Below, in pieces: positions 2,115-18,830 of a stretch of DNA of 60,578 nucleotides. The DNA is from a virus, in the IMG/VR virus record IMGVR_UViG_3300006735_005646, positions 1-60,578 of that record; one strand, given 5' to 3'. Under the pieces are notes generated by a model that was not told where the DNA came from, did not search any database, and saw nothing but the letters and a program-made list of their open reading frames with translations. The position numbers were made by a program, and so were the translations under genes. The first letter of the stretch is position 1. Each line of letters opens with the position of its first letter.

Positions 2115-2145
2115 GTTTCATAGAAAGCCATTATTGGAGAATGAT

Positions 2146-3501
2146 ATGAAAACATTTAGAACATTGCTTAACGAAATAATGTCTGTGAATAATTCTGGAT
2201 CAGCAGATGCGGGTACAGATTCCGGTGGTATTGCAAACATAATTAGTTCAGATGGTAAAGGTAGTGATGGTAAAGGAAATGTCATCCCATCGAAACCTAA
2301 TGCTTCTCCGCCTACTGGAAAAATACGAAAAGCAGGTATAGGTTGGGGACTCGACGCAGAACAGTATAGTAATCTTGTTGCACAAGCAAAGGCTTCTGGA
2401 ATCGAGTTTGATGAATCAGATCCTAGCAACATAATGAGAGCAATAAATCAGAAAAAACTTAAAGACTTAGTGCAATCCTCAAAGGAACTGGCTAAGTCAT
2501 TCTCCACATCAATTGATTTTGAAGGAAGAGATGACAGGGGACTCGAAGATTTAGACAAAGCAAAGGCCGACTTTGCTAAACATGCAGAATCGGTTACAGA
2601 CAAAATTCATAAAACCAATTCTGAATTGATGACGAATAGGTGGTCTAAACCAGGCGACTTCAACAAAGATAATGCAGAAGATTATGTTGGATGGGACATC
2701 AAAGATACTGGTGAAGCACAACAGAGAAGTAATCCTTCTGGTGGTCCCGATGAACCTGATGATCCCAATGACGAAGAGCAGGATGAAAACGAAGAGCAGG
2801 ATGAAAACGAAGAGCAGGATGACAATGATGTAGATCCTGATAATGACTTCACTCCTCAACAAAATCAACAGTATCGTCGATGGAGACAGGATCAACTAAA
2901 TCCGAATCAACGACCAGATAAATATGCTCCTAGATTCCCTAACGATCCTACAGAGGGTAATCCTGTTGAAACACATCCACTGGATCCCGGCTACACCATT
3001 CCTCAAAATGCTAAACCCGTTAAACCGAATTATTATCACCGTGACAGAGTTGATCCGAGTCAATTCGTTCCGTGGGATGATCTCAACAATGATCCAAATC
3101 ATCAGCAGCCGGGATATGAAATGCCTAAGCCTAAACCACCGGGATATCAAATAGCACCGCACTGGTGGAGTCCCCTACACGGTAAACCAAAGCCGATAGA
3201 TCCGAATGATCCCGATTTACCCTTCCCAGGCTTACCGTATGTGAACCCGAAGCCGGCGCCCCACAAACCAATCGGGCCCCCGCACAGGCCTTGGTGGGAT
3301 TACATCAGACAGTTCTTTAATCCGTACAACGGACCCGGCGAAGCAACTCCGGGGTTTAGTTCTCCATCCGGGCCCACATGGCCAAACTACAATCAACTTC
3401 CCAACAGGCCGAGGATGCCGTTTTACTTTGGAAAAAATGAAGGAACAATAGTGAAAAAGACTATGAAATCATTCATGGAGTACATTTCAGAAACATCATG
3501 A
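2146..3501 (+). CDS. putative internal head protein, acidic repeat and Pro-rich
   Basis: ATG at 2146 is chosen because TTGGAGA sits just upstream; an in-frame TTG at 2134 overlaps that site. The protein (451 aa) begins MKTFRTLLNEIMSV, close to the capsid-targeting sequence of T4 internal proteins, with the likely cut after LNE. Then comes a low-complexity region with three 6-residue acidic repeats (EEQDEN), followed by a long Pro/Asn/Trp-rich C-terminal part. The last residues, MKSFMEYISETS, are a second targeting-like sequence at the wrong end. The stop overlaps the ATG of the next gene. A virion location is inferred; no enzyme motif is visible. Confidence 0.65.
   Translation: MKTFRTLLNEIMSVNNSGSADAGTDSGGIANIISSDGKGSDGKGNVIPSKPNASPPTGKIRKAGIGWGLDAEQYSNLVAQAKASGIEFDESDPSNIMRAINQKKLKDLVQSSKELAKSFSTSIDFEGRDDRGLEDLDKAKADFAKHAESVTDKIHKTNSELMTNRWSKPGDFNKDNAEDYVGWDIKDTGEAQQRSNPSGGPDEPDDPNDEEQDENEEQDENEEQDDNDVDPDNDFTPQQNQQYRRWRQDQLNPNQRPDKYAPRFPNDPTEGNPVETHPLDPGYTIPQNAKPVKPNYYHRDRVDPSQFVPWDDLNNDPNHQQPGYEMPKPKPPGYQIAPHWWSPLHGKPKPIDPNDPDLPFPGLPYVNPKPAPHKPIGPPHRPWWDYIRQFFNPYNGPGEATPGFSSPSGPTWPNYNQLPNRPRMPFYFGKNEGTIVKKTMKSFMEYISETS
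2773..2826 (+). repeat. 18-bp tandem repeat, three units
   Basis: Units at 2773-2790, 2791-2808 and 2809-2826; the first two are identical (gaagagcaggatgaaaac) and the third differs at two bases. They encode the acidic EEQDEN repeats. The near identity at DNA level suggests recent slippage or recombination. Confidence 0.9.
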
Positions 3502-4700
3502 AAGGGTTCTTGGAGTTCATCTCGGAAGCAGCGAAGAATGTCCACATGACACATGTTGAGGACTTGGTGTTTGAGGGCAGTAAAAGAGCAGAGGAAGCAG
3601 TTTCATTTTTGGAAGAGATTGCAAAGATGCTCGATGGTAACAGCAAGTCCAGAACAAATGCAACAGTCAAGTGGGACGGTGCGCCTGCAATTGTATGTGG
3701 TATCAATCCAGAGAATGGTAAGTTCTTTGTTGGTTCAAAGAGTGTATTCAACAAGACACCGAAGATTAACTACACCATTTCTGACATACGAAAGAATCAT
3801 AAAGGTGGAGTCGCAGATAAACTGGCAGTAGCATTGAAGTACCTGAAGAAACTTCCCATCAAAGGAATACTCCAAGGTGACATGATGTTTGGACCGGGTG
3901 ATATAAAAACGAAGAACATCAATGGTGAATCACACTACACCTTCGCACCAAATACAATTACATATGCACTACCCGTTGACTCTGATGCCGGTAAAAAAGT
4001 TAACCGGGCGAAGATGGGAATTGTGTTTCACACAACATACACTGGTAGCAGCATGTCTAAACTGTCTGCATCGTTTGGTGCAAACGTAAAGAATCTAAAA
4101 AGAAATAGTTCCGTTTGGGTTGATGATGCAGATTTCAAAGACGTAAGTGGAACAGCAACACTAACAAAGACAGAATCAAGTTCACTCTCCTCCGTACTAT
4201 CTACAGCAAAGGGTCAATTAAAATCAGCAAAATCGTTTTTAGATGAAATTGCAATGAACAAGAAAGTAATTGACAATGTAAATATTTACGCCAACTCTAA
4301 AGTAAGACAAGGTTCAACAACTCTTTCTACCAAGGAATTCATAACATTCATGAATGACAAAATACAGAAAGAAATTGACGGTCTTAAATCTGAAGAGGCA
4401 AAGAAGAGAAGAGAATCAACAAGGGATCAGATGGTAACATATCTAAATACCAAAAATAAAGAACTGGATTCTGTCTTCTCTTTACATGCCTCACTTACAG
4501 AAGCAAAGATAATTCTTGTAAGGAAATTAGAGTCGGTGAAGTCAATTGGAACATTCATTCAAACCTCGGATGGTTTCAAGGTGACTGCACCAGAGGGGTT
4601 CGTTGGTATTGATAAGTATACTAGTAATGCAGTGAAACTTGTTGACCGTTTAGAATTTAGTAAAGCCAACTTCACTGTACCAAAAAACTGGTCTAAGTGA
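3498..4700 (+). CDS. KxDG-motif nucleotidyltransferase-like protein with capsid-targeting start
   Basis: 400 aa, starting in an ATGA overlap. Residues 1-10 (MKGFLEFISE) resemble a capsid-targeting sequence with a cut site after ISE. Residues 58-61 read K-W-D-G in NATVKWDGAPAI, the motif I pattern of ATP-dependent DNA/RNA ligases and capping enzymes. It is followed by FFVGSKSVFNK (motif Ia-like), ILQGDMMFG (motif III-like, with GD for GE) and GIVFHTTY (motif IV-like). The family is known to me as a conserved uncharacterised protein of T4-like marine phages. A covalent nucleotidyltransferase or ligase is inference. The helical C-terminal half (240-380) is Lys/Ser-rich. Confidence 0.65.
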   Translation: MKGFLEFISEAAKNVHMTHVEDLVFEGSKRAEEAVSFLEEIAKMLDGNSKSRTNATVKWDGAPAIVCGINPENGKFFVGSKSVFNKTPKINYTISDIRKNHKGGVADKLAVALKYLKKLPIKGILQGDMMFGPGDIKTKNINGESHYTFAPNTITYALPVDSDAGKKVNRAKMGIVFHTTYTGSSMSKLSASFGANVKNLKRNSSVWVDDADFKDVSGTATLTKTESSSLSSVLSTAKGQLKSAKSFLDEIAMNKKVIDNVNIYANSKVRQGSTTLSTKEFITFMNDKIQKEIDGLKSEEAKKRRESTRDQMVTYLNTKNKELDSVFSLHASLTEAKIILVRKLESVKSIGTFIQTSDGFKVTAPEGFVGIDKYTSNAVKLVDRLEFSKANFTVPKNWSK

Positions 4701-5378: not shown

Positions 5379-8300
5379 ATGAAAAAAATTGTTTTTACAT
5401 TCGGTAGATTCAACCCACCTACTACTGGTCATTACCTACTTGCCACTCGCGTGAAAGAAGAGGCGAGAAAAAGGAATGCTGAATATAGGATTTACGGTAG
5501 CAACACCAAAGATCCAAAGAGAAATCCCCTCTCACCAACAAGCAAATCAAAATTCATGAAGAAGGTTCTGAACGATAGAAACGTCGTGGTGAACAAGGAC
5601 TCTGGTAATCCATATGCAGTGCTTCAGAAATTGAGTGCAGAAGGATATAGTGATGTCACTATGGTAGTGGGTTCCGATAGAGTTCCTGAATTCAAAAGAG
5701 GAATCAAGAAGTATATTGGCAAAAAGGGATACGAGAACATCAAAAATTTTGAAGTGGTATCTGCTGGTGATAGAGATCCAGATGCAGAAGGTGTTGAAGG
5801 TATGTCTGCATCTAAGATGAGAGCAGCGGCAGCAGAGGGAAATATAGATGCGTTTCGGTTGGGAGTCCCATCTCATGTGTCAAGTAAAGATGTGATGGAT
5901 TTGTTTTATGCAGTCCGAAGAGGTATGGGTATCCGAGGAAAGATTGAAGAGTCGTGGTTCAACTATGACGAGTTTGCAGAGTTTGTCAATGAACAATCAG
6001 AGTTGAACGAATTAACACTTCAGGCAAGAAGAAAACTTTCTATGCGTATGAAGAAGACTGCAAAGAAACGTGCTAGGGTTAGAAAACTTCGAGAGAAGAG
6101 AAGAAAAACAAAAGTACAATTGGTTGCAAGAGCAAACAAGCAAGCGATTAAGAAAATTCGCTCAAGGTTTCATAAGGGTAGATCATGGTCTGAAGTTTCA
6201 TTCATGGAAAGAGAAAGAATCAGCGAAAAACTAAAAAAGAAGAAGAAAGCAATTCAAAGAATTTCAAAACGACTCATTCCTGCAATGAACAAAGCAGAGA
6301 AGGAAAGACTAGATAAGGTTAGAAAACGAATGACTAGTAAAGATCCTGTAAAAGCAATCGCACCGACTAACGAACACATCGACATCATGTTTGAAGAATA
6401 CTTGGAGGAGATAGCAGTTCCGAGAGCGAGACCTAGAGACAAAGTTTCTAGTAGAGTTGCGGCACAGGATAAGGTAAATAGAGAAAAGCAAAAAGCACAG
6501 GACAGAGGACTGGATGCTAAGAAGGTAGATGCAGCAAGAAAAAGAGGTGAACGAGCAGACGGTAAAACTGATAATCGTTCTGACAAACAGAAAAAGTTTC
6601 CCAACCTACAACCAACCGATCCTGTAGAAATACAAAGAGGAGATGAGGTTGAGATTGTTCTATTCAAAGATGCCAAAATAGATCAAATCAAATCTTCAAA
6701 ACCAGTAAAACCAGGTCAAGCAAAATCAATTTCAAATAAGCCAGGATTTGTTTGTGGTGAAACAGCACAATCATTGGGTGTCAATTGTGACAAGGTTGCA
6801 CAGGCGCAACAGACAGAAAAAGGACAACAGGGACAGCAAGCACCAGAACAGGAAGTAAATCCAGAACTACAAAAGGCGTCCGATGCACAACAAATTGCTC
6901 AGTCAAAACTTAGCACTGCTCAAGCAAATCAACAACTTGCTGACATGGAAGCACAGCAGCAACAACAAAAAGATGCAAGAGAAGCAGAGTTAGCACAAGC
7001 ATACAAAAACCCATATGCGAAACAATTCGGAATTGAAAGCAAACCCCTACCCAAAGGGAAGAAAGATAAACAAAAGGGAGACACATTCCCCTCTTCTGGA
7101 CACAAGGCGGTAGATGCAGAGTTCGCTCTAGTCGCTGCTGCACATGGTTGTCACGATTTGACTGGTAAAAAAATGAAAGCATGTTTAGATGCTGCGGACA
7201 TAAGTGCAGGAGATCAAAAAATATTAGCACAGAGTGTGACACTAACAGGTGCTGGTAGAAGAATGTGGGATACTCTGGGTAAACTTATACCAGAAAACTT
7301 TGAAGCAAAACACTATGGTAAGGGTGGACCTCCTATCACTTTGTCTGACACTTGGCAAAGAAATAAAGCAGGAGATAAAACACCAAAGACTGATTTGTAT
7401 TGGGAAGATAAAAAGACCGGAGAGTCAATAAGAGCATCAATGAAAATTGGTGATGGACAACTCATGTCTGGTGGTGCAGAAGAATCCATGGCAACACTCG
7501 AAACTGCGATGAACCGTATGCGTGGTTGCAAGGGAGTCGATAAAGACGGACAAGGAACTGATTGCAAACGAACTCCAATGTCAGGTGAAGCGAAAGCAAT
7601 AAAAGCGATTCAATCAATCAAAGAGGACATTGCTAAATCATACGACAGAGATAGTCTTGGTGCGGGTATGGGTCCAACGTCATGGTGGTTGGACGGTGGT
7701 GTCGTAAAAACACCAGGCGATAGAGAACCAGATTGGTGGAAGAAGGACGGATCACCAGGCTCCAAGGGTGTCAAGTGGAAAGATGTAGTTGGTAAACCAC
7801 CAAACAAAGCAGACTTTCCAAACTACAATGAAAAGACAATCGATAGATTGAAGAATGCAAACTCTTCTCATAAGAGGATCATGGGTAATATTGAAAATCT
7901 ATTCGAGGAGAGTGAAGAGTTCAAGAGACATGTAATTTACGAATCATTAACTGGTTGTGGTAAATTCTGTGGTTGTTGTGGTCAGGATGTGTGTAATGAT
8001 TGTCAAGAGAAAGCAATGGCGACTCACATGGTTACTGCTGAGAAAGATGGAACAAAGGCAGCACTCACAGAAATCGGTGGACCGAATAGTCCGTTCGTAA
8101 CTAAACTACTGAAGCAAGTGAACGTATCCGTGCGTCTCAAGAGCAGTCAAAAAATATCCAAAGCAACCGGGAAAGAAGGAAACTATAGTTGGTGGTCTGT
8201 TCTTGGACTCACCACAAGTGGCGGATTCATGGGTGAAGAAAATGTACAGGCATTTCTTGAGTTCAATGGTGATACAGAACATCCAAAAAACCAAGTGAAA

Positions 8301-10010
8301 AAAGCAATGGAGTCTATTGGGGATGATCCACAAAAACTCCTAGAGTTCTTCGGTGCTGAAATTGAAATGGATGTAACACACGGAAATCTAGCAGACACAT
8401 TCGCAGAGAATACATCTGGTAAGCACACTGAGATTGTAATCAACGGAAAGACAACAAGAATTCCAATCGAAAATCCAGAGGATTATAGAGATTACCAGAA
8501 GGAAGCAGAAGAAGGCGAAGACCTAGACGAATCATTCCGTGTGCTGACTGAACCAGACATTCTTGACAGACTGGTAACACAGTTGAGAGATAAAGGAATG
8601 GAAAAAAATAAAGCATACGCAGTCGCCACTTCACAGTTGCAAAAACGTGGTGTTCTTAAAAAGGGAACGAACGACTTGACTACACATGGAGAAAAGAGAG
8701 ACTCGATGGGTGCCGCAGGTAGAGCAAAGGATAGAGCAGCGAAGAAGGATGGTAAGTCTCCGAAGGATTATAACTATAATCCAAGAACAAACATTGCAAC
8801 ACAGAAAGAAGATTGTGGTTGCATAAATGAAGACAACACCGCCGCAATTGCAAAGCAAGTTAAGCAAGCAGTAAAGAAGTATGTGACTGGTACTCCCAGA
8901 GTTCAATCCAAGGGTGGTAAGGTTCGTTTCATTATGCTACGAGCAGACAAAATTGACAACAAACTTCGCAAGATGATTCTTGATGTTGAACATCCAAACG
9001 CAAAGGTTCGTGATAAGAATAATATCTCTTATGGAAACATCAGCGATAGAATTATCAGTGCGGGTGCAGATGTATGGATGGATGCACTTGGGTTGAAAGA
9101 ATCCGTTCAATTGAATGAATGTTGGGACACACATGTTCAACAAGGATATAAAATGAAAGGTGGGAAGAGAGTTCCAAACTGCGTACCAAAAGGTTCTGCA
9201 ACTAAATTTGGAGAGTCAACCACACATGGTATTGGAACATTTGCAAAAATAGACATTCAAGAGGGAGCAACCATAAGTCTATATCTCTTGGACTTGATGG
9301 AAAATACACCCACATACCAACGAACAGACTTCTGTAGATTTACAAATCACTCACACAAAAATGCCAATATAACTCTCGAACGAGTTGATGGTGGTCTTCA
9401 TGCTACAGCAACCAGAGATATTCAGGAAGGAGAGGAGTTCTTCATAGACTACTTCCATGTTCTTGACAATATCGGGACTAACATGAGCATCATTGAAGAT
9501 GTTCTAAGATGGACAGAAGGATATGAAAACCTATACATTCCAGAGGATACAATCCAGTCCTTCGCACATGAATTATCATACTTTGTAAGTATAGGTGATT
9601 GCCCTGAACTGTCCGAGGAGTTCTTGAAAATTCTTCCTGAGTACACAGTATCGGAAGATGAAGATCCGGTGAAGAGAGCAAAAAGGCAAAAAGAATATAA
9701 CGCAAGACCAGAACAAAGAGCAAGAAGAAGTTCAAGAACAAATGAGAGAAACAAGAGAATAAGAAAAGGACAGGTGAAGGTCGGTGACGGGAAGGATATA
9801 GATCACAAGGACGGTAATCCACTAAACAACTCCTCTTCCAATATAAGCATAACATCTGCGAATTACAACAGAGGACGAAATAATAACAAGGGCAGAACCA
9901 ACGAAGAACATGGTGCCGGTGATATGGGAACAAAGGAATTGCTAAAAAAATATCTAAAAAATACACCCCATATGACTATTGATGCTAAGTTCAAGAAAGA
10001 GATGGATTGA
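5379..10010 (+). CDS. giant virion polyprotein: nucleotidylyltransferase, nuclease-like, Cys cluster, SET and HNH domains
   Basis: 1543 aa; AGGAG precedes the ATG. Domains in order: 1-185, HIGH-superfamily nucleotidylyltransferase (TFGRFNPPTTGH at 7-18, SASKMR at 143-148), most like NMN adenylyltransferases; 205-335, strongly basic; 475-555, Gln-rich helix; about 665-700, PKTDLYW then SMKIGDGQLMSGG, a nuclease-like core; 860-875, six Cys in GCGKFCGCCGQDVCNDC; about 890-1010, a domain shared with other marine T4-like virion proteins; 1248-1275, Cys/Trp-rich WDTHVQQGYKMKGG; 1284-1358, SET domain (GIGTFAK, NHS at 1323-1325, GEEFFIDY); 1473-1500, HNH-type (DIDHKDGNPLNN). Sites like gp21 cuts separate these blocks: LNE211, LEE344, IYE855, INE1151, LNE1247. 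A packaged, protease-matured enzyme set is inferred. Confidence 0.8.
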   Translation: MKKIVFTFGRFNPPTTGHYLLATRVKEEARKRNAEYRIYGSNTKDPKRNPLSPTSKSKFMKKVLNDRNVVVNKDSGNPYAVLQKLSAEGYSDVTMVVGSDRVPEFKRGIKKYIGKKGYENIKNFEVVSAGDRDPDAEGVEGMSASKMRAAAAEGNIDAFRLGVPSHVSSKDVMDLFYAVRRGMGIRGKIEESWFNYDEFAEFVNEQSELNELTLQARRKLSMRMKKTAKKRARVRKLREKRRKTKVQLVARANKQAIKKIRSRFHKGRSWSEVSFMERERISEKLKKKKKAIQRISKRLIPAMNKAEKERLDKVRKRMTSKDPVKAIAPTNEHIDIMFEEYLEEIAVPRARPRDKVSSRVAAQDKVNREKQKAQDRGLDAKKVDAARKRGERADGKTDNRSDKQKKFPNLQPTDPVEIQRGDEVEIVLFKDAKIDQIKSSKPVKPGQAKSISNKPGFVCGETAQSLGVNCDKVAQAQQTEKGQQGQQAPEQEVNPELQKASDAQQIAQSKLSTAQANQQLADMEAQQQQQKDAREAELAQAYKNPYAKQFGIESKPLPKGKKDKQKGDTFPSSGHKAVDAEFALVAAAHGCHDLTGKKMKACLDAADISAGDQKILAQSVTLTGAGRRMWDTLGKLIPENFEAKHYGKGGPPITLSDTWQRNKAGDKTPKTDLYWEDKKTGESIRASMKIGDGQLMSGGAEESMATLETAMNRMRGCKGVDKDGQGTDCKRTPMSGEAKAIKAIQSIKEDIAKSYDRDSLGAGMGPTSWWLDGGVVKTPGDREPDWWKKDGSPGSKGVKWKDVVGKPPNKADFPNYNEKTIDRLKNANSSHKRIMGNIENLFEESEEFKRHVIYESLTGCGKFCGCCGQDVCNDCQEKAMATHMVTAEKDGTKAALTEIGGPNSPFVTKLLKQVNVSVRLKSSQKISKATGKEGNYSWWSVLGLTTSGGFMGEENVQAFLEFNGDTEHPKNQVKKAMESIGDDPQKLLEFFGAEIEMDVTHGNLADTFAENTSGKHTEIVINGKTTRIPIENPEDYRDYQKEAEEGEDLDESFRVLTEPDILDRLVTQLRDKGMEKNKAYAVATSQLQKRGVLKKGTNDLTTHGEKRDSMGAAGRAKDRAAKKDGKSPKDYNYNPRTNIATQKEDCGCINEDNTAAIAKQVKQAVKKYVTGTPRVQSKGGKVRFIMLRADKIDNKLRKMILDVEHPNAKVRDKNNISYGNISDRIISAGADVWMDALGLKESVQLNECWDTHVQQGYKMKGGKRVPNCVPKGSATKFGESTTHGIGTFAKIDIQEGATISLYLLDLMENTPTYQRTDFCRFTNHSHKNANITLERVDGGLHATATRDIQEGEEFFIDYFHVLDNIGTNMSIIEDVLRWTEGYENLYIPEDTIQSFAHELSYFVSIGDCPELSEEFLKILPEYTVSEDEDPVKRAKRQKEYNARPEQRARRSSRTNERNKRIRKGQVKVGDGKDIDHKDGNPLNNSSSNISITSANYNRGRNNNKGRTNEEHGAGDMGTKELLKKYLKNTPHMTIDAKFKKEMD

Positions 10011-10695: not shown

Positions 10696-11166
10696 ATGAA
10701 AAGTTATAAAGAATTACAAGAAAATCTAAAACCAATCACCGAAGGACAAGAAACTTCCGGTGGTGCTGCTAGAAGCGCCCACAGTGATTTCGGTGTTCAT
10801 AGAATCGAACACCCAGAGCAATTAGGAAGACTCAATGCATTCTTAAATGCGTTTACTCAAATGGAGTTCATGGAACCAAAGGCAGCGATTGCGACGATTC
10901 GTCACAAACTCAATCTAGCAGGACTTGATTTTGAATGGAACAACACATCAACATACACACCAGAGGAAAACTTAAAACTTCCACTCAATAGGTATGGTGG
11001 TTCTTTCGGAACAACTCCCACACATGATCTAAGACAAGGGTTCTATAAAGGTGATAATATCTCCGAGTTCAATGGTGGAGTTGGTATGGCTTTATCTATA
11101 GATGTATATCAGGAGGATAGTGGATTGTATCAAATGGATGCAAAAATTATTCCAAACGCTGAATAG
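10696..11166 (+). CDS. conserved T4-like phage protein with capsid-targeting start
   Basis: 156 aa; ACTGGAG precedes the ATG and a late promoter lies upstream. Residues 1-9 (MKSYKELQE) resemble a capsid-targeting sequence. The body contains DFGVHRIEHPEQLGRLNAF, RHKLNLAGLDFEW and FGTTPTHDLRQGFYKGD. I know this combination as a conserved but uncharacterised protein of marine T4-like phages. It is probably a virion or prohead component; no enzyme motif is visible. Confidence 0.6.
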   Translation: MKSYKELQENLKPITEGQETSGGAARSAHSDFGVHRIEHPEQLGRLNAFLNAFTQMEFMEPKAAIATIRHKLNLAGLDFEWNNTSTYTPEENLKLPLNRYGGSFGTTPTHDLRQGFYKGDNISEFNGGVGMALSIDVYQEDSGLYQMDAKIIPNAE

Positions 11167-11186
11167 TCAATCTTCTTTTTTTTATT

Positions 11187-11567
11187 ATGGATTTTAAGTC
11201 ACTCGACAAAAACAATTTTATGATGTTCGCAATGAAGATGTACACCAATCCTCAGTGTTTGGGTATGGATGAGTTTTACGAAGACTTAAATCGAATAAAG
11301 TATATAAAGAGGTTGCTGGGAAGATACGATAAGAAAGGTTTACTGAGAGAGAGACTAGTATTGAATCATATCATCATATTAAGTAACGTATTTGGTGCAG
11401 AGGCAAGTTCTAGAATACTTTTTCACAAGATAGAAGATAGGTTTCATTCATATTTAAAATCATTTCTAGAATATCTAAATCTACTACCAGTCCAGATACC
11501 AGAAGTAAAATTACAAGAAATTCCAACAGATCATAAAATCAATACAATGCTAAGAGGATTGAAATGA
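11187..11567 (+). CDS. conserved T4-like phage protein, all-helical
   Basis: 126 aa. No ribosome binding site is visible before the ATG (a T-rich stretch instead). The protein has the pattern KNNFMMFAMKMYTNPQC, EFYEDLNRIKYIKRLLGRY, LRERLVLNHIIILSNVFG and YLKSFLEYLNLLP. I associate this with a conserved helical protein common in marine T4-like phages, usually found together with the gene that follows. Function unknown; its stop overlaps the next start (ATGA), so the pair is probably translated together. Confidence 0.65.
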   Translation: MDFKSLDKNNFMMFAMKMYTNPQCLGMDEFYEDLNRIKYIKRLLGRYDKKGLLRERLVLNHIIILSNVFGAEASSRILFHKIEDRFHSYLKSFLEYLNLLPVQIPEVKLQEIPTDHKINTMLRGLK

Positions 11568-12019
11568 TACTAAAAGAAAATAATTTATATGAAGCAGGAG
11601 ACATGAGCGATGCAAGTCGAGTGATCAGTGCATTTACTGTCTTTAAATTTATTAAAATTATATCCGATCCTTTCACTAAGATGGAAGCATATAAACTAGG
11701 AATCATCGACGCAAAGGGAAAATTTCTCAAGAAAGTAGATGAGTTAGAGACTAAAAAAGAAAGAGACTCAGTGAGTCCCTTCAACAGACTCATGATTAAC
11801 TTAAAGAAGGCAATGGATCGGGTTCCTGATCCAAAATTTAGGGCACAACTCAGAACTCTACCCACTGCAATGATTCTTCTCAAGGATGAAGCGGAGAAGG
11901 TAGGTGCAGATGGTGAAATGGTATTAGGTGAAATTAGAAATTATCTATTCGAGAATGGAGTTGATGTGGATAGTCTTTCAACTAACGAAGAATTCAAGGA
12001 ACTTCTTCAAGGAGAATAG
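11564..12019 (+). CDS. conserved T4-like phage protein, putative virion component
   Basis: 151 aa, starting in an ATGA overlap with the preceding gene. It opens MILKENNLYEAGDMSD and continues with FTVFKFIKIISDPFTKMEAYKL and a helical C-terminal half. The YKL-G-IIDAKGK segment is one I recognise from marine T4-like genomes in the same order. The LYE near the N-terminus could be a prohead-protease site, which would make this a head or core protein, but that is inference. Its last codons contain the ribosome binding site for the next gene. Confidence 0.55.
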   Translation: MILKENNLYEAGDMSDASRVISAFTVFKFIKIISDPFTKMEAYKLGIIDAKGKFLKKVDELETKKERDSVSPFNRLMINLKKAMDRVPDPKFRAQLRTLPTAMILLKDEAEKVGADGEMVLGEIRNYLFENGVDVDSLSTNEEFKELLQGE

Positions 12020-12021
12020 AA

Positions 12022-12402
12022 ATGGCAAACAATAGAGAGATACCAGAAGAATTTCTAAACGGAGACTTTGATTTTGGTTTTACTGCGGCAGATGAGGATG
12101 AACTCAACGCACTTGTAGAACTAGATGATCCCACAACACCAGACGAAATCAAAGAGATGCAGGACAAGTTAGATTTGATTCTGCAAATGAACTCCACATG
12201 TGATGGTGCAAACCAAGTAAAAGAACAATACGATGAACTTCTCAAAGCAAAATTGGAAGAGATCGAAAAGGCCACTCTTCCTCTTCTGTTGAACCTCAAA
12301 AAGAACAAACAGAAAGATTATTTGTATTGGCCGGGAGGTCAAAGAGAAACACAATGTGAACTACAGATACAGAAGATACTCAATGTAACGAGGAATGTCT
12401 GA
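12022..12402 (+). CDS. conserved acidic coiled-coil phage protein
   Basis: 126 aa; AAGGAG lies within the end of the previous gene. The N-terminal part is acidic with DFDFGFTAADEDELNAL, the middle is a predicted coiled coil (about 35-90), and the C-terminus has DYLYWPGGQRETQCELQIQK. The DFGFT and YWPxR-type motifs occur together in marine T4-like phages. Function unknown. The stop overlaps the ATG of the small basic gene that follows. Confidence 0.55.
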   Translation: MANNREIPEEFLNGDFDFGFTAADEDELNALVELDDPTTPDEIKEMQDKLDLILQMNSTCDGANQVKEQYDELLKAKLEEIEKATLPLLLNLKKNKQKDYLYWPGGQRETQCELQIQKILNVTRNV

Positions 12403-12632
12403 TGGGATGTGGGTGTAACAAAAGAAGAAAGAAAAGAAGGCAGTCTTCAAGGATGCCTGTTTCACCAAATCAAAAGCAAGCAACAACTATCGGTGGTATC
12501 AAACTTCCTACCAATCCGTCTTTTGATGAAAGACGAAGTGCTGTTGCAAAAATAAACAACGGAAAGATAAACAAAGCAAGAAAACAAACCGTTGCTGATC
12601 GTGTGAAAGCAAGAAAAGAATCGGAAGGATAA
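12402..12632 (+). CDS. small basic protein with N-terminal Cys pair
   Basis: 76 aa, ATG overlapping the preceding TGA. It starts MGCGCNKRRKKRRQSSR and stays highly basic throughout, which suggests binding to nucleic acid or to acidic cargo. The two cysteines at 3 and 5 could bind metal or be modified. I recognise no family. It sits between a conserved structural-type gene and the lysozyme and is probably late. Confidence 0.45.
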   Translation: MGCGCNKRRKKRRQSSRMPVSPNQKQATTIGGIKLPTNPSFDERRSAVAKINNGKINKARKQTVADRVKARKESEG

Positions 12633-12633
12633 G

Positions 12634-13428
12634 ATGGCAAAAACTCCTGCTTATCTTAGAGGTCCAAACGCAGTTGATGTAGAGACAAACCCGAAACCAT
12701 CAACAACTCCAGATCCAGATAATTATCCTCGTATCAACACATGCTGTCCTTGCATGGAATGTTTGGATGACTGTATCAAAGAAAGAGAGAGTGGTGGGGA
12801 AGGTTCTCCTGTTACCAATCCCTCCAACCTTAAACCAGATCCAGATCATACAGGATGTGATGCACCGGCCACTGGATGTGAAACAGGTCTTGGTTGTGAT
12901 TGTGGTCCTTATCAAATAGATCATCAAGACTATGTTCACGATATATGCGGTCCTGTAGGACCATGTTCAAACGGTGATGGTGGTTATGATAATAGTTGTT
13001 GTGAAGTCTGTGCGGATGGATACGGAGAATCATTATGTCAACCATGCGGAAACGATGCGGCGTGTTGTGAAGAGAAAGAAAGAAGAAGTAAAAAATTAAT
13101 GGATTGTTGGAGGAGAAGATACACAAGAAATCCTGCCTGCAAGGGACATGGTCCGATTATACACCCAACCGATCCAGACTCTGGACCTTGTTTTACTTGT
13201 GAAGACATAGCAAGAATGCACAATGGTGGTCCGAAGGGACATTGTAATAAAAACACAGAGGGTTATTGGAATAAAATCAAAGCATGTATGGCAAGGAAGT
13301 GTGGGTTTGCTTCAACAGAATCTGGCGAAGCGTGTGCAGATGTTGAAGTAAATAAGAGCAAACGTACAGAAACAAACCAAACTCGTTATTACGAAAGGTG
13401 GAAGATCATGAATCCAAAAGATCCATGA
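12634..13428 (+). CDS. invertebrate-type (destabilase) lysozyme
   Basis: 264 aa; GGAAGG precedes the ATG. The sequence carries the signature of i-type lysozymes. The CPCMECLDDCIKERESGG stretch (38-55) has E52 in the place of the catalytic Glu. CGPYQI follows at 90-95, then a Cys-rich stretch ending CWRRRYT (158-164), and finally CEDIARMHNGGPKG (189-202) with EGYWNKIKACM (209-219). Family members hydrolyse peptidoglycan and are animal secreted enzymes or bacterial homologues. At least 20 cysteines suggest several disulphides, odd for a cytoplasmically made phage endolysin. No signal peptide is visible. Holin and spanin candidates follow within 900 bases, so an endolysin role is the simplest reading; a virion-bound lysin is the alternative. 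Confidence 0.8.
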   Translation: MAKTPAYLRGPNAVDVETNPKPSTTPDPDNYPRINTCCPCMECLDDCIKERESGGEGSPVTNPSNLKPDPDHTGCDAPATGCETGLGCDCGPYQIDHQDYVHDICGPVGPCSNGDGGYDNSCCEVCADGYGESLCQPCGNDAACCEEKERRSKKLMDCWRRRYTRNPACKGHGPIIHPTDPDSGPCFTCEDIARMHNGGPKGHCNKNTEGYWNKIKACMARKCGFASTESGEACADVEVNKSKRTETNQTRYYERWKIMNPKDP

Positions 13429-13430
13429 TG

Positions 13431-13438
13431 TATAAATA
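13431..13438 (+). promoter_or_regulatory. T4-type late promoter almost touching the start codon
   Basis: TATAAATA ends 5 bases before the ATG at 13444. A usual late start would fall on or next to the ATG, giving a leaderless transcript. No ribosome binding site lies between. Confidence 0.65.
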
Positions 13439-13443
13439 CTACT

Positions 13444-13839
13444 ATGAAGACCTTTAAACAATTATTACAGAATTTGCCAGAAGATGTTGCCAACTCAATG
13501 GGTGGTGGTGGTTTCGGTGTAGGACAGGCAGCACAGACTTCAAACCCCAACCTTGCGGGATATGATCCTGTTATGGGACTGGGTGGAAGAAAAAAGAAAA
13601 AGAAAAAAGTACAAGAGAAATTTGCAGGTTGTGCCGTGTTCAATTTAACCAGCGAAGAATACAATAAATGTATGCGTGGTAGAATGAAATACGAAAGATG
13701 GAGTAAGAAAATGAATATGGAAGATATCAACAACCAAGATATCCGAACATATTGTCATCGAAATCCAGGTCAGCCTGTTGTTATTAAAGATTCAACCACG
13801 GGAATAATGGCATACCTTATTCCACCATCAAAAAGGTAA
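13444..13839 (+). CDS. conserved phage protein with capsid-targeting-like start
   Basis: 131 aa. It opens MKTFKQLLQNLPEDVANSM, like the T4 capsid-targeting sequence, then a Gly-rich segment, a KKKKKK run (52-57) and a conserved C-terminal domain with CAVFNLTSEEYNKCMRGR and HRNPGQPVVIKDSTTGIMAYL. That domain is widespread in T4-like marine phages with no known function. The Lys run next to a flexible N-terminus is consistent with a head protein touching DNA. It interrupts the lysozyme-holin order. Confidence 0.6.
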   Translation: MKTFKQLLQNLPEDVANSMGGGGFGVGQAAQTSNPNLAGYDPVMGLGGRKKKKKKVQEKFAGCAVFNLTSEEYNKCMRGRMKYERWSKKMNMEDINNQDIRTYCHRNPGQPVVIKDSTTGIMAYLIPPSKR

Positions 13840-13842
13840 AAT

Positions 13843-14289
13843 ATGCTTACATCATTTTTAACACCAGAGTTTCTTACTCTGATTGGTAGCAGTTTAACAG
13901 GATTTCTGTTTAGATACCTAGCAGAGAAGAGAAAAGATCAGAAAGAAATGTTCGAGAGAGCAATGGCACGATCCAAGAGACAGGACGAAAGTGCTGATCT
14001 CGCTGTTAAACGAGTAAGTGTTGACGCTGGTAAAATCATCAGAAGAATTATTGTTGTTACTATATTGTTCGGTACAATACTTGCACCATTCATTCTACCA
14101 TTCTTTAGCATTCCTACGGTGGTAGAGGTTACAGAGAAGAGTGGTTCATTCCTTGGTATCTTTGGTGGTAATACTAGCATCAAATTCCAAGAGGTATATG
14201 GTTATCTGTTCACCGAAGAGAACAGACAGATTCTTTTAACCATTGTAGGATTCTACTTTGGTAATGCTGCTGGAAAGGCTTCGACATGA
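13843..14289 (+). CDS. three-helix membrane protein, holin candidate
   Basis: 148 aa with hydrophobic segments at about 7-24 (weak), 66-87 (IIVVTILFGTILAPFILPFF) and 127-142 (ILLTIVGFYFGNAAGK), and a basic, charged loop (26-50). The FYFGNAAGKA ending is one I associate with three-helix phage holins. Position between the lysozyme and a spanin-like lipoprotein supports a lysis function. An alternative is a general membrane protein. Its stop overlaps the next ATG. Confidence 0.55.
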   Translation: MLTSFLTPEFLTLIGSSLTGFLFRYLAEKRKDQKEMFERAMARSKRQDESADLAVKRVSVDAGKIIRRIIVVTILFGTILAPFILPFFSIPTVVEVTEKSGSFLGIFGGNTSIKFQEVYGYLFTEENRQILLTIVGFYFGNAAGKAST

Positions 14290-14501
14290 ATAAATTAGTT
14301 TTGCTTATGATTTTGTTTTTAACTGGGTGCAGTGATGCGATGCGAATAAAATCAACAACACCAGTGGGAAAAATTCCGCAACAAACGGCAGAACAAACAA
14401 CAGAATCCTTATCTCATAATGGTATGTGGATTACTGTGTGGTTGATTTGTGTTCTTGTTGCTACTGTTCTTGTGTTCAGGACATTCAAAAAAGAATCTTA
14501 G
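14286..14501 (+). CDS. short lipoprotein with C-terminal membrane helix, u-spanin candidate
   Basis: 71 aa, ATGA overlap with the holin candidate. A signal peptide ends in the lipobox LTGC (Cys 15); a polar segment of about 30 residues follows; residues 48-66 (WITVWLICVLVATVLVF) form a transmembrane helix. A lipid at the N-terminus and a C-terminal inner-membrane helix is the topology of unimolecular spanins such as T1 gp11. The periplasmic part is much shorter than in T1, so bridging of the envelope would need a narrow periplasm or oligomer contact. Its TAG overlaps the stop codon of the convergent gene. Confidence 0.55.
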   Translation: MNKLVLLMILFLTGCSDAMRIKSTTPVGKIPQQTAEQTTESLSHNGMWITVWLICVLVATVLVFRTFKKES

Positions 14502-15067
14502 AATGTGTATGAGTCAAGTACTTTATCATGCAGGTACTTGCAAATATAATAAGAATCAACAATATCGGAAACAGGGTTATCCACTGTTCCTTTGTCTGGA
14601 GTTATTTCTTGCTTCAGATCGATACCAGTATCAGTTTTAAAGAATTTATGCATCATAGTTTTGTCTGCATTACCTTTACCAGTTGCAAACTTCTTCACTG
14701 TTGTTGGAGGAATAACTTCGAGTGGAACGCCGCTATTGTATATCTTATACTTAAGAACACCAGTGTTCTCTGCGATATGAAAAACTTTACCCTTTGAACC
14801 ATAAGAGTATCCTTCTATTGCGATGTGTTCACATCCTAGAAGGTTATCCATCGCCCAGTCTGCAATGCTTTTATATCTCTGGTATTCACAGTTCCAATCT
14901 TGAAATCTGGAACCATATACATTGGTTAAAAAGAATTCTGCATACTTCTTTGTTTCGGTTAGAAAATAAAACTTACATCTTTCAAATGTAAACGCTTCCT
15001 TTTCTGTCCCCGCAAATACACATATACTTGGACTTCTCATACTGTAGTCTATTCCTGCAATAATCAT
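14498..15067 (-). CDS. RuvC-like Holliday junction resolvase
   Basis: 189 aa, GTAGGAG before the ATG. An RNase H fold is indicated by D7 in AGIDYSMRSP, E85 in HIAIEGYSYG, and the acidic pair D168/D171 in VSDIVDSYYI, with PPTTVKKFATGKGNADK in between as in RuvC proteins. Such enzymes cut four-way DNA junctions; in T4 this job belongs to the unrelated endonuclease VII (gp49). It probably resolves branched DNA before packaging. A late promoter variant overlaps the upstream small frame. No signal of truncation. Confidence 0.75.
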   Translation of the reverse strand: MIIAGIDYSMRSPSICVFAGTEKEAFTFERCKFYFLTETKKYAEFFLTNVYGSRFQDWNCEYQRYKSIADWAMDNLLGCEHIAIEGYSYGSKGKVFHIAENTGVLKYKIYNSGVPLEVIPPTTVKKFATGKGNADKTMMHKFFKTDTGIDLKQEITPDKGTVDNPVSDIVDSYYICKYLHDKVLDSYTF

Positions 15068-15168: not shown

Positions 15169-15297
15169 CTAATTTCCTTGTATAAATTTTACCAATAGTA
15201 TTCCCGCGACGAATGATGCTATCGCTACAATCGCTCCACTTGGAGTTGAAAGTTGATGCACCTTACTATCTATCCATTGTTTCCAGTAATTGTTCAT
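15169..15297 (-). CDS. 42-aa single-span membrane protein
   Basis: ATG at 15297 with GAGGAAA 6 bases upstream, inside the end of the serine protease gene. The product has a polar N-terminus (MNNYWKQWIDSKVHQL) and one hydrophobic helix (GAIVAIASFVAGILLVKF). Overlap with the protease gene suggests translational coupling. Function unknown; a small envelope partner of the protease is one possibility. Confidence 0.5.
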   Translation of the reverse strand: MNNYWKQWIDSKVHQLSTPSGAIVAIASFVAGILLVKFIQGN

Positions 15298-16024
15298 TTT
15301 TTATTTCCTCTATCCAACTTTTATAATATTCAACACTTGCACAAGCGTTCTCAAATATTAGTCCACCAGTCACACTGAAGTTTGCCATGATACCTATGAG
15401 TTTGTTTTCTCTGGTTAGGACTGCACCACCAGAGTCACCGAACCAGATAGATGCCTTTAGTGGGAGCATGACCATGAACTGCGGGTTTGAGATGAGTCTA
15501 CCGTAGTACCAAAAGGTGCCAGAGTTACTGTATCTCTTAATACCATGGCCATGCCCCACTGTAGTAAGAGGCATTCTCTTATAAACTGAGTCGTCAGGTT
15601 CGAGTAATTCTACGGGAGACTCATCTGATGGATGTTCCAAAACTATGATCGCTATATCGTGAAATCCGTAAACGCCGGGAATATGTTCTGTGTAATAAAT
15701 CACCTCCTTGATACAGATTTTATCACCGTCCGTTTCTGTCCAAACCAAATCTTCCTTCCCTTCTGTAACATGTGCAGCAGTAAGAACCAATGTTGGTTCA
15801 ATTAAAACACCAGTACCAATGAGTTTGTTGTTTTCTGAATAGTTAATTGAACCAACAAACTGATATGGATCAGGCCACAAATCTCTGAGGAGATATGTGA
15901 ACGGACCCGGTGGTTTCGGGGTTTCTTTTATTTCTATTTTTTGTGGCGGAGGAGTTATGGTAGTTGCTGTGCAACTTGTTAAACATAGTAAGGACGCTAA
16001 AACATATAAAATTGTCTTTCTCAT
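15266..16024 (-). CDS. lipoprotein trypsin-like serine protease
   Basis: 252 aa. The N-terminus is a lipoprotein signal peptide ending LTSC (Cys 18), followed by a Pro-rich linker (25-41). The chymotrypsin-fold triad is complete: H85 in LTAAHV, D123 in FHDIAIIVL and S198 in FGDSGGAV. The mature enzyme should sit on the periplasmic face of a membrane. Phage-coded exported proteases of this class are unusual; possible roles are degrading host receptor, blocking superinfection, or weakening the envelope at lysis. It is separated from the upstream polyprotein gene by a terminator, so it should have its own promoter, which I could not define. High confidence in fold, low in role. Confidence 0.85.
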   Translation of the reverse strand: MRKTILYVLASLLCLTSCTATTITPPPQKIEIKETPKPPGPFTYLLRDLWPDPYQFVGSINYSENNKLIGTGVLIEPTLVLTAAHVTEGKEDLVWTETDGDKICIKEVIYYTEHIPGVYGFHDIAIIVLEHPSDESPVELLEPDDSVYKRMPLTTVGHGHGIKRYSNSGTFWYYGRLISNPQFMVMLPLKASIWFGDSGGAVLTRENKLIGIMANFSVTGGLIFENACASVEYYKSWIEEIKNEQLLETMDR

Positions 16025-16144: not shown

Positions 16145-17557
16145 CTACTTTTTCGAGGATCTAACATCTGGTTTACCAGGCATGTCTTGTCTATTAGTTA
16201 CAGTTTTTTTACCACCAGGTCCAACGGCAGTAATTTCATGTCCAATTTTAGTTGCGGGATTTAGTTTTATCTTTACTGCTTCTTTGATTGCATTCTTTTT
16301 ATTTGATTTGAAACCATTTGTTCCGAAAACATTGTTATTGATTGCAGGGATACCAACTCCTGCACCTTTCATGTTGTATTTTTGTAATTCTTTTGGGCAT
16401 TGGTAGTCTTCGCCTAATCTTTCCTTCGCTTTCATAAGACCTTTTGCTCGTCTGTTTGTGCTTGGTTTGTGCTTACCTTGATCTGTGTAAAGGTCTCTTG
16501 TTATTTGAGTTCTTGCTTTAGTTGCATAACTTCGGAGAGTTTTTTTATCTAATTCGTTAAGTGAACCTTCACCCAACTTTAGTTTTATGTTTGCTTTTTT
16601 CTGTTGTAATTGGCGAACTCTGTTTAGTTTTTGGGTTGCTTGTCTCTCAGTTTTTCCACGGCTTATAACTTTATCACCCTTGCTGACATCATACTTATCG
16701 AATCCGTGTCTGTCTTGCTTACCTGTATTTTGTGCCTTATACTTTCCATACACCATACTGCTTGCTTCACCAAGTTTCTTGACTGCCCTTTGAATTCCAC
16801 TTTGTCTCTTTTTTGTTATTCGTTCTGTTTTGCGGTAATCTCGTATTGCGGTGTTCTTTGCTCTTGCCGCGAGTTGCCTGACATTTCTTCTAGTTGGATT
16901 AGGTGCAGCGGCATTCATTGTATCATCAGCATCTTTAAATCTTTGTCCGGCGCGTCCTGATTCGTACCCCGATCTTTTAATGCTACCAGCAGCCTTATTG
17001 ATATAACTTCCGAGTGTGGACTTCTTCAACTCATCTAGATTCTCACCTTCTTCTGGCTCATGGTCTTCATGCACCTCACTTACAAGAATTTTAAGACTAT
17101 CGGTGGGAACTCCCTTTTCAACACCATGTTCAAACATGACATCGTACCAAGCAATTTGTCCATTCTCATCTGGCGTTGCATGTTTAGAATGAATGCATTG
17201 TCCTTCGCCATATTGTGTGTGTTCTACATGAGTGGCACAATCATGCTTTCCTTTTTTCTTTTTCTTCTCTTCAAGTTCAACAGATTCCTTCACAATGTCT
17301 TCAGCCTCATTCTCACCGGGTTGTTTCTTATTCTTGGTATCGCCTGAGATTTCCATGTCTCTAGCAGGTATATTCTTCGTAGTACCATCTTCAAATTTAA
17401 CCCTGTAGAACTCGTCACCTTCCGTCTCACCGTCTTGAGACACTTCTTTTCCAACTACCCCTCTCTTACCATTCACGATTACAGTTTTACCCTTCATGTG
17501 GTCTTCATTGAGGTTAATGATAGATTCTAACAGGTTTTGAAATTGCTTAGTTTCCAT
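16145..17557 (-). CDS. putative processed virion polyprotein with SH3-like and basic modules
   Basis: 470 aa; TAGGAG precedes the ATG. The start METKQFQNLLE resembles a capsid-targeting sequence. Many [LIV]xE sites follow: LLE11, LNE18, LEE97, LDE176, LGE264, LGE330, LNE335, LGE383, IKE426. Residues 23-70 and 112-157 look like two small SH3/Tudor-like barrels (YRVKFEDGTTKNIPARDMEI and a similar WYDVMFEHGVEKGVPTDSL). Two basic helical modules begin almost identically (LDELKKSTLGSY at 174 and LNELDKKTLRSY at 333), and each ends in LGE. Maturation by the prohead protease into discrete DNA-binding peptides is inferred. It is isolated on the strand opposite the other cargo genes. Confidence 0.65.
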   Translation of the reverse strand: METKQFQNLLESIINLNEDHMKGKTVIVNGKRGVVGKEVSQDGETEGDEFYRVKFEDGTTKNIPARDMEISGDTKNKKQPGENEAEDIVKESVELEEKKKKKGKHDCATHVEHTQYGEGQCIHSKHATPDENGQIAWYDVMFEHGVEKGVPTDSLKILVSEVHEDHEPEEGENLDELKKSTLGSYINKAAGSIKRSGYESGRAGQRFKDADDTMNAAAPNPTRRNVRQLAARAKNTAIRDYRKTERITKKRQSGIQRAVKKLGEASSMVYGKYKAQNTGKQDRHGFDKYDVSKGDKVISRGKTERQATQKLNRVRQLQQKKANIKLKLGEGSLNELDKKTLRSYATKARTQITRDLYTDQGKHKPSTNRRAKGLMKAKERLGEDYQCPKELQKYNMKGAGVGIPAINNNVFGTNGFKSNKKNAIKEAVKIKLNPATKIGHEITAVGPGGKKTVTNRQDMPGKPDVRSSKK

Positions 17558-17651: not shown

Positions 17652-18830
17652 TCAGAAACTAACGCTAAGTTGTGTTCTGAGTAGATACTGACCATTGGAG
17701 TCGCCTGCATTCCAACCGGAACGATAGAGATTCCATTCAGTACCAATAGCATCGAATGCATAACCAAGAGTAGTAGTCCAACGGACGTACTTATTGATGT
17801 CAACATTCGCACCAACCTCAAGGACGTTTAGATCAGAATCGGAAACACCAAGTTTACCGTACTGATAATTAACGAAACCTGTGAGGTTATCGGTGCATTG
17901 GTATGCAACTTCGGCGTTGAAACCGTAGTTCTTACCATATCCACCTACTGCATAATCAGCAGAAACCCATGAGACTTGTGCATTTAGAGGACCGTTGCTA
18001 TAACCAAAGTCAACGGTATAAGTGCCATAATCTTCGAGTTCTGACTGGTATGCGTATGCGGCTCCCAACTGGAAACCACCACCAAAGTCAACGTCACCAC
18101 GGACGCTGATACCATAATCATTATCTACAATGAATACATTCTCTGTACCGAATCCATCATTGTATGAAACAGAGAGGTCCAACCAGTCAAAGTCCTTGCT
18201 GAACTGGACACCCTGTGATCTTCCTTGACCAAACGTAGTAGCGAGAATGGTGTATTCACCTTCAACATTATCCAATGGTGAATCGGTGAAGTCCTTATAG
18301 AACGCAGTGACAAACTGTCCTGCTTGGAAGTCAACACCCCAACCCAAGTCCATTGTGGTATAGGCGTCAACGAGTTCCATAGTGCCATTTGTATAGTCAC
18401 TAAACTCACCACTTACATAATAACCAATCTTTCCTAGAATCTCACCCGAAACTTCGAGACGAGCATAGGGAATACTGAACTGATTATTTTCAGCGACACC
18501 ACCATCGTTGTTATAACTCCAACGAGTAATGGCAAAACCACCCACGTTAACAGTGACGGGTTGTGCATCCGCCATCATCATTGTGCGTGCATCAGCATCA
18601 GCCATGACATCTTGTACCATAGCCTTTACTTCTTCGCTTCGACGAGTTTCCAACCAACTTGGTTCTTGGTTCGCATCCAATGTTGCGATCTTTGCTTCTG
18701 CTGCATCGAGACGAGCCTGTAGATCCTCATATGAAGGACCGTCAGCAAGTGCAGGTGCAGCGAATGATGCTACAACAATTGCAGCAGCAAGACCACCGTA
18801 CATCATCCACTTTTTCTTTGAAATATTCAT
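17652..18830 (-). CDS. phage-encoded outer-membrane porin
   Basis: 392 aa with the strongest ribosome binding site in the window (AAGGAGGT, 7 bases from the ATG). A signal peptide ends near residue 29 (FAAPALA then DG). A coiled coil follows (DLQARLDAAEAKIATLD), then a WLETRRSEEVKAMVQDVMAD segment, and from about 90 on a 16-strand-type beta barrel with alternating aromatic strands (NNQFSIPYARLEVSGEI, GFVNYQYGKL). It ends in Phe (LSVSF), the usual assembly signal. The architecture fits phosphate-selective OprO/OprP-like porins. The segment after the coiled coil looks like that of planctomycete porins, from memory. It is co-transcribed with the 64-aa gene from a sigma70 promoter and closed by its own terminator. 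A role in nutrient uptake or in changing the host surface is inferred. Confidence 0.85.
   Translation of the reverse strand: MNISKKKWMMYGGLAAAIVVASFAAPALADGPSYEDLQARLDAAEAKIATLDANQEPSWLETRRSEEVKAMVQDVMADADARTMMMADAQPVTVNVGGFAITRWSYNNDGGVAENNQFSIPYARLEVSGEILGKIGYYVSGEFSDYTNGTMELVDAYTTMDLGWGVDFQAGQFVTAFYKDFTDSPLDNVEGEYTILATTFGQGRSQGVQFSKDFDWLDLSVSYNDGFGTENVFIVDNDYGISVRGDVDFGGGFQLGAAYAYQSELEDYGTYTVDFGYSNGPLNAQVSWVSADYAVGGYGKNYGFNAEVAYQCTDNLTGFVNYQYGKLGVSDSDLNVLEVGANVDINKYVRWTTTLGYAFDAIGTEWNLYRSGWNAGDSNGQYLLRTQLSVSF

Follow-up and report, generated by a model that had tools for sequence, protein, structure and literature searches.

The window analysed here is the whole of IMGVR_UViG_3300006735_005646, a 60.6-kb virus fragment (60,578 nucleotides). 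At 5379-10010 on its plus strand lies a single ATG-initiated open reading frame of 1543 residues without an internal stop, as found by an ORF check of the window. All of the motifs quoted in the initial annotation are present in it, and in the order given there: TFGRFNPPTTGH, SMKIGDGQLMSGG, six clustered Cys (C860-C875), NHS...GEEFFIDY and DIDHKDGNPLNN. The main features are listed below, where CTS denotes a capsid-targeting sequence and a slash marks a potential cut.

2134-3501, plus strand: Pro-rich protein with a CTS-like N-terminus, MKTFRTLLNE/I
3498-4700, plus strand: DUF6267 protein, the conserved partner gene, with a perfect T4-type N-terminal CTS, MKGFLEFISE/A (Pfam DUF6267, 1.6e-119)
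5379-10010, plus strand: predicted head-cargo polyprotein frame, 1543 residues, 172.8 kDa, pI 9.3; fused frame kept in L006-L010
5379-5951, plus strand: HxGH-type nucleotidylyltransferase (NT), residues 1-191, 21.3 kDa, ending in IEE/S; assigned from Pfam, PHROGs and motifs
5952-6011, plus strand: acidic spacer SWFNYDEFAEFVNEQSELNE, residues 192-211, with an x-E site on each side; resembles an internal CTS
6012-6410, plus strand: basic module, residues 212-344, 16.0 kDa, pI 11.4, ending in FEEYLEE/I
6411-8531, plus strand: Q/K-rich linker and nuclease-like domain, residues 345-1051, the domain at about 570-1040
7956-8003, plus strand: six-Cys cluster C860-C875, an optional insert within the nuclease-like domain
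8532-8831, plus strand: small basic module (RAKDRAAKKDGKSP...), residues 1052-1151, 11.1 kDa, bounded by LDE/S and INE/D
8832-9119, plus strand: module of residues 1152-1247, 10.7 kDa, ending in the stereotyped linker LKE/SVQLNE/
9120-9191, plus strand: CW module (CWDTHVQQGYKMKGGKRVPNCVPK), residues 1248-1271
9195-9656, plus strand: SET domain and C-terminal extension, residues 1273-1426; assigned from Pfam, Foldseek and motifs
9657-10007, plus strand: probable HNH domain, residues 1427-1543, 13.5 kDa, pI 10.1
16145-17557, minus strand: second multi-module protein with a CTS-like N-terminus, METKQFQNLLESIINLNE/D, and the linker VKE/SVELEE/K

When viral contigs were scanned using the C-terminal portion of the frame as query, the same fused arrangement appeared on five other contigs (L006-L010). 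Measured stop to stop, these frames are 1851 (L006), 1672 (L009), 1638 (L010), 1437 (L007) and 1317 (L008) residues long, with about 26-71% identity depending on the segment. The window and L006-L010 also have a common order of neighbours, i.e., exonuclease, DUF6267, a NUMOD-like small gene, the giant frame and a GAF-like gene (the L006 locus ends inside DUF6267), and the conserved neighbours that follow the GAF-like gene lie at 10696, 11187, 11564, 12022 and 13444. The recurrence of the fused frame and its neighbours on five other viral contigs indicates that the fusion is neither a chance event nor a chimera. In a collection of 50,697 phage records, the part of the frame covered at any single locus of an isolate phage does not exceed 23%. 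The closest matches to the window's DNA polymerase are from Synechococcus T4-like phages (53% identity); judged by sequence, the source of the frame is a T4-like (Kyanoviridae-related) marine phage.

A single PHROG profile, phrog_455, spans DUF6267 and NT, which indicates that the two are fused in other phages. KWDG, LQGD and the KLVDRLEF end of the DUF6267 protein (3498-4700) recall nucleic-acid or RNA ligase motifs, and this protein may be a packaged ligase-like enzyme. The Pro-rich protein upstream carries at its C-terminus a second CTS-like sequence, MKSFMEYISE/TS (MKSFMEYISETS), which overlaps the start of the DUF6267 gene. In L002, a P-loop kinase-like gene (8277-8939, HTVC008M gp129, with GGPGSGKT) lies between DUF6267 and the nucleotidylyltransferase, possibly a kinase in the cassette.

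The nucleotidylyltransferase proposed for the N-terminus held up well. The isolated domain scores 23.7 bits (5.8e-5) against Pfam CTP_transf_like, above the cut-off of 21 bits, and it matches phrog_3041/395. The signatures of the HxGH type are present (TxGH and SASKMR, both conserved), and among the homologues GRFNPPTTGH (GRxNPPTxGH) and GMSASKMR are strongly conserved. Relatives occur in 542 phage records, cyanophages for the most part, and the stand-alone homologue of S-SZBM1 matched NadD/NadR (NMN/NaMN adenylyltransferase) models below cut-off. By motif and profile, NT is an HxGH family nucleotidylyltransferase of the NMNAT/PPAT type, its enzyme function being predicted. The acidic spacer that follows has [IV]xE followed by S or N at one edge and [LI]xE at the other in six of six relatives, with diverged flanks. 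Modules similar to residues 212-344 were also found in L087 and L098.

The domain at about residues 570-1040 occurs as a separate gene with a CTS in pelagiphage HTVC008M and methylophage Melnitz, and it has a structural match to proteins of S-IOM18 and S-RIM50. In HTVC008M, Melnitz and S-IOM18 this gene adjoins DUF6267, and the nucleotidylyltransferase gene either comes directly after or is a few genes further along. Its invariant set consists of E, T-x-K-x-D, S-x-K-x-G, L-x-S and E-x3-G-x2-K; in the alignment E12 is near-invariant and D103 invariant, S118xK120 follows, and strands lie around these residues. This motif order is PD-(D/E)XK-like, but Ser replaces the acidic residue of ExK. No PDB match was obtained in sequence or structure searches, Pfam gave no convincing match, and the segment alone retrieved nothing when used as a query against viral contigs. 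The nuclease-like reading of the initial annotation thus survives at the level of motifs and not at that of a PDB fold, and residues 570-1040 form a domain conserved among phages, with motifs in a PD-(D/E)XK-like order, for which we keep the term nuclease-like rather than nuclease. The six clustered Cys, previously listed as a component in their own right, are indeed there, but as an optional insert in this domain, present in the window, L006, L007, L009 and L010 and absent from L008 and from the standalone homologues of HTVC008M and Melnitz.

The small basic module of residues 1052-1151 was found at 15 loci, at several of which it belongs to another ORF. L010 carries the 1152-1247 module in another ORF as well, flanked by the linkers KESVELDE and KESVQLDE. 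The SET domain was confirmed. Pfam SET is matched at 4.5e-8, as it is by seven of seven homologues, the model of the segment (of moderate confidence, mean pLDDT 77) matches MLL, EZH2, SET8 and chlorella virus vSET (3kma) with a Foldseek probability of 1.00, and NHS and the catalytic DY are invariant among the homologues. Residues 1273-1426 therefore have a SET fold by profile and predicted structure, and lysine methylation is the predicted activity. At the sensitivity used, SET relatives were found neither in isolate phages (50,697-record collection) nor in bacterial genome contigs. E1279 (FGE/S) was considered as a cut site and set aside, since it is kept in a standalone SET protein and probably belongs to the first SET strand; for the same reason CW and SET probably stay joined as one product. 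In the C-terminal segment, the H and N residues of the HNH motif are invariant across homologues and phrog_4590 is matched at 1.7e-7, but Pfam HNH_3 (9.2e-4) falls below cut-off and the PDB profile match to the HNH homing endonuclease 1u3e is weak (E 0.03). Overall, profile and structure searches by segment, which the initial annotation had put forward as a check, recovered the SET and NT folds, gave weaker support for an HNH domain at residues 1427-1543, below the Pfam threshold, and returned no fold match for the nuclease-like domain.

The polypeptide had been proposed to be cut after L/I-x-E at five positions, and these tripeptides all exist (LNE211, LEE344, IYE855, INE1151 and LNE1247). 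The frame contains 23 L/I-x-E tripeptides in all, and because many of them lie inside folded domains the motif alone is weak evidence for cutting. Counting the conserved L/I-x-E columns over the whole protein likewise yields weak evidence: the enrichment is modest (6 versus 1.7 by chance), with three of the six inside the SET region. At the module junctions, x-E at E191, E211 and E344 is kept in all or most of the six fused proteins while the flanks differ, site 211 reading LNE, LSE, LNE, INE, LDE and LNE, and site 344 reading LEE, IEE, IEE, INE, LNE and LNE. x-E at E1051, E1151 and E1247 is conserved in these proteins wherever the module is present, and x-E followed by D or N precedes HNH. 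E855 was rejected, as it is the E of YE[SA]MTG, which is invariant in the nuclease-like domain including single-domain homologues; E191, E1051, E1241 and E1426 appear to be better additional candidates.

The same modules are shuffled among many proteins. CW occurs in 57 distinct contexts with 26 unrelated upstream clusters, and E or EA directly precedes it in 17 of these 26 (a manual count), and most of these have a hydrophobic residue three positions upstream; kinship among phages inflates such junction counts. The linker ESVELDE was found 29 times in unique ORFs versus 0.4 in shuffled ORFs, joining 19 upstream to 19 downstream unrelated module clusters, and linkers of this form together with the preceding residues often make two potential cut sites. 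We also considered whether the type of CW junction tracks the presence of the gp21-family (S77) prohead protease. None of 14 records with a non-E junction has S77, but only four of the 14 exceed 90 kb (97-120 kb) and the pattern follows phage lineage. Melnitz, which bears S77, has EEDP before CW, and DP or FEK precedes CW in the isolates Sf-CH8, S-8S53, Bellamy and S-TIM5. The association is thus suggestive, but confounded by lineage and partly contradicted by Melnitz and the isolates with DP.

The frame starts with MKKIVFTFGRF and lacks an N-terminal CTS. Its best internal candidates are SWFNYDEFAEFVNE (residues 192-211) and FEEYLEE/I, ending at E344. The T4 CTS reads YQEFIAE/A, and FEEYLEE/I is like it in the aromatic, acidic and hydrophobic positions. 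Separate versions of the modules do carry T4-type CTSs at the N-terminus, i.e., a standalone SET protein in L011 (MKSFRRFITE/N), CW proteins (MAKTFKDFAE/A, MKTYTQLREELCE/ and, in isolate S-RS29, MKTFNQFQAE/), nuclease-like proteins of Melnitz (MQGFKTFLSE/A) and HTVC008M (MLSFTGYSNLSE/A), and standalone NT proteins of S-CAM8 (MKKFSAFLIE/A) and S-SZBM1 (MRFRQFIIE/A). Among DUF6267 homologues, 13 of 32 have a CTS, compared to 0 of 64 control neighbour proteins. The S77 protease was found in all eight relative records over 70 kb; it is not in the window, a 60.6-kb fragment without head genes. gp23 of HTVC008M and Melnitz has the same type of site at residue 52 (AFLGE/I and AFLSE/A, respectively). 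In T4, the cleavage site of gp21 lies behind L/I-X-E, and the first ten residues of IPIII are enough for targeting proteins to the head (PMC9026906).

LC-MS of purified virions of cyanophage S-SZBM1 detected the nucleotidylyltransferase S-SZBM1_140 (2 peptides) and S-SZBM1_139 (4 peptides) (PMC9146016). The latter is a CW-bearing neighbour of S-SZBM1_140, whose NT domain is 38.9% identical to that of the frame and lies beside DUF6267. NMNAT-like proteins have also been reported from S-SCSM1, S-CBWM1 and S-CREM2 virions, with the caution by the authors that NMNAT is possibly a co-purified contaminant of CsCl-purified particles (PMC9602691, PMC10665884). Packaging in the head, as claimed at the outset, thus finds support in the published proteomics of NT and CW homologues and in the T4-type CTSs on separate versions of the parts. 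As for processing, E211, E344, E1151 and E1247 are supported by junction conservation, module shuffling and S77 in near-complete relatives, whereas E855 is not.

Our assessment, drawn from sequence comparisons, is that the 1543-residue frame probably encodes a head-cargo polyprotein that is cut by a gp21-family protease at module junctions and whose products are injected with the DNA. Its cleavage, injection and every enzymatic function are what we infer, the functions of the segments coming from fold and motif. CTS-like peptides would take the polyprotein into the prohead scaffold, where the S77 protease would cut after L/I-x-E at E191, E211, E344, E1051, E1151, E1241/E1247 and E1426. This would release NT (1-191, 21.3 kDa), the spacer (192-211), a basic protein (212-344, 16.0 kDa), the nuclease-like protein (345-1051, 77.4 kDa), two small basic modules (1052-1151, 11.1 kDa; 1152-1247, 10.7 kDa), CW-SET (1248-1426, 20.4 kDa) and HNH (1427-1543, 13.5 kDa). 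The products would remain with the DNA and go into the host at infection, where nucleotide or cofactor metabolism may be adjusted, protein lysines methylated and DNA acted on.

It is also conceivable, though we think it rather improbable, that the protein is packaged and left uncut, i.e., that it enters the host as a single chain with cooperating domains, in the manner of a classic polyvalent protein, x-E being part of incidental linkers. Many phages encode polyvalent proteins, which combine 2-15 disparate domains (PMC5512222), and the many L/I-x-E tripeptides inside folded regions would fit, but such a protein would leave unexplained why x-E is kept precisely at module junctions, why the double-site linker ESVELDE is stereotyped, and why separate versions of the same modules have a CTS ending in x-E and near-complete relatives have S77. 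That the frame encodes a multi-domain enzyme made in the cytoplasm during infection and never packaged, with a coincidental CTS likeness, is in our view unlikely. It would agree with the missing N-terminal CTS and with the neighbouring minus-strand genes for replication enzymes (DNA polymerase, helicase, primase, RNR), but not with NT and CW homologues in S-SZBM1 virions or with the CTSs on DUF6267 homologues (13/32 against 0/64 controls) and on SET and nuclease-like proteins that have genes of their own. T4 gp22 and gp67 are processed to several fragments, most of which leave the head (PMC9026906), and by analogy the frame could be a prohead core component with decayed enzyme-like folds, whose pieces are degraded and lost. 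The retention of catalytic residues (SET NHS and DY, NT GRxNPP..GH and SASKMR, and the invariant H and N of HNH) makes this highly improbable.

The predicted head-cargo polyprotein is similar to the polyvalent proteins of Iyer et al. 2017 (PMC5512222), in which several unrelated enzymes share one phage polypeptide, are predicted to be packaged and injected, and also occur as single domains; here, two or more domains of disparate activity (NT, SET and HNH, by Pfam, PHROGs and Foldseek) lie in one polypeptide. The text of that study mentions no SET domain, NMNAT or cyanophage. It proposes processing via zincin-like peptidases, whereas here the head S77 protease would cut at L/I-x-E and, unlike for those proteins, delivery would be of the T4 CTS type. 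T4 IPI-III and Alt have a CTS of the same form, are cut after L/I-x-E and are packaged with DNA (PMC9026906), as predicted here, but each T4 internal protein is one unit whose propeptide is terminal, whereas about seven modules are strung together here with internal sites. Likewise, the cyanophage virion proteins S-SZBM1_140, S-SCSM1 ORF91 and S-CREM2 ORF154 are cytidylyltransferase/NMNAT-like (the latter two likened by description), but the S-SZBM1 NT is a stand-alone gene with its own CTS and no fused nuclease-like, SET or HNH domain. The SET fold with NHS and DY is shared with vSET of Paramecium bursaria Chlorella virus 1 and cellular SET methyltransferases; unlike these, it sits in a tailed bacteriophage, fused within a cargo chain. 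In outline, the polyprotein reading is well supported; in concept, the frame would encode a polyvalent protein delivered by the CTS/gp21 route of T4 internal proteins. We found no description of the processing scheme or of the SET component in the literature searched. The initial remark that no described phage protein has this set of domains stands for the 50,697-record collection, which has no SET relative, but the concept of a packaged multi-enzyme polyvalent protein has been published.

A broader reading, to which we give somewhat less than even odds, is that a class of T4-like marine phages makes true head polyproteins, in which standardised cleavable linkers (ESVELDE and similar double L/I-x-E forms) allow bead-like swapping of cargo. 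Many enzymes, among them a SET lysine methyltransferase directed at proteins of the bacterium, would then be packaged in a single chain, separated in the prohead and co-injected. A head-cargo polyprotein, if confirmed, would show that T4-type internal-protein packaging serves modular polyproteins as well as single proteins, would explain the delivery of mixed enzyme cargo in fixed proportion by large marine phages, and would add a SET-fold protein methyltransferase to the enzymes that a bacteriophage injects. The linker rule would also be a practical means to find and delimit unknown head-cargo modules in metagenomes.

The minus-strand protein at 16145-17557 is likely another cargo polyprotein. 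In L007, large ORFs lie near the giant frame at 13273-14940 and 10836-13310, the former with four ESVELDE linkers. On the minus strand of the window, 17652-18830 encodes a porin of the phosphate-selective type with a signal-peptide-like start (Pfam Porin_O_P 4e-8, above cut-off), for which the isolate phage collection gave no match, and 15266-16024 encodes a lipoprotein-like protease of the trypsin family (Trypsin_2, 4e-14). The region 28625-60554, also on the minus strand, has a tail fibre-like gene with glycosyltransferase and nucleotide-sugar genes, which is unusual beside a replication cluster.
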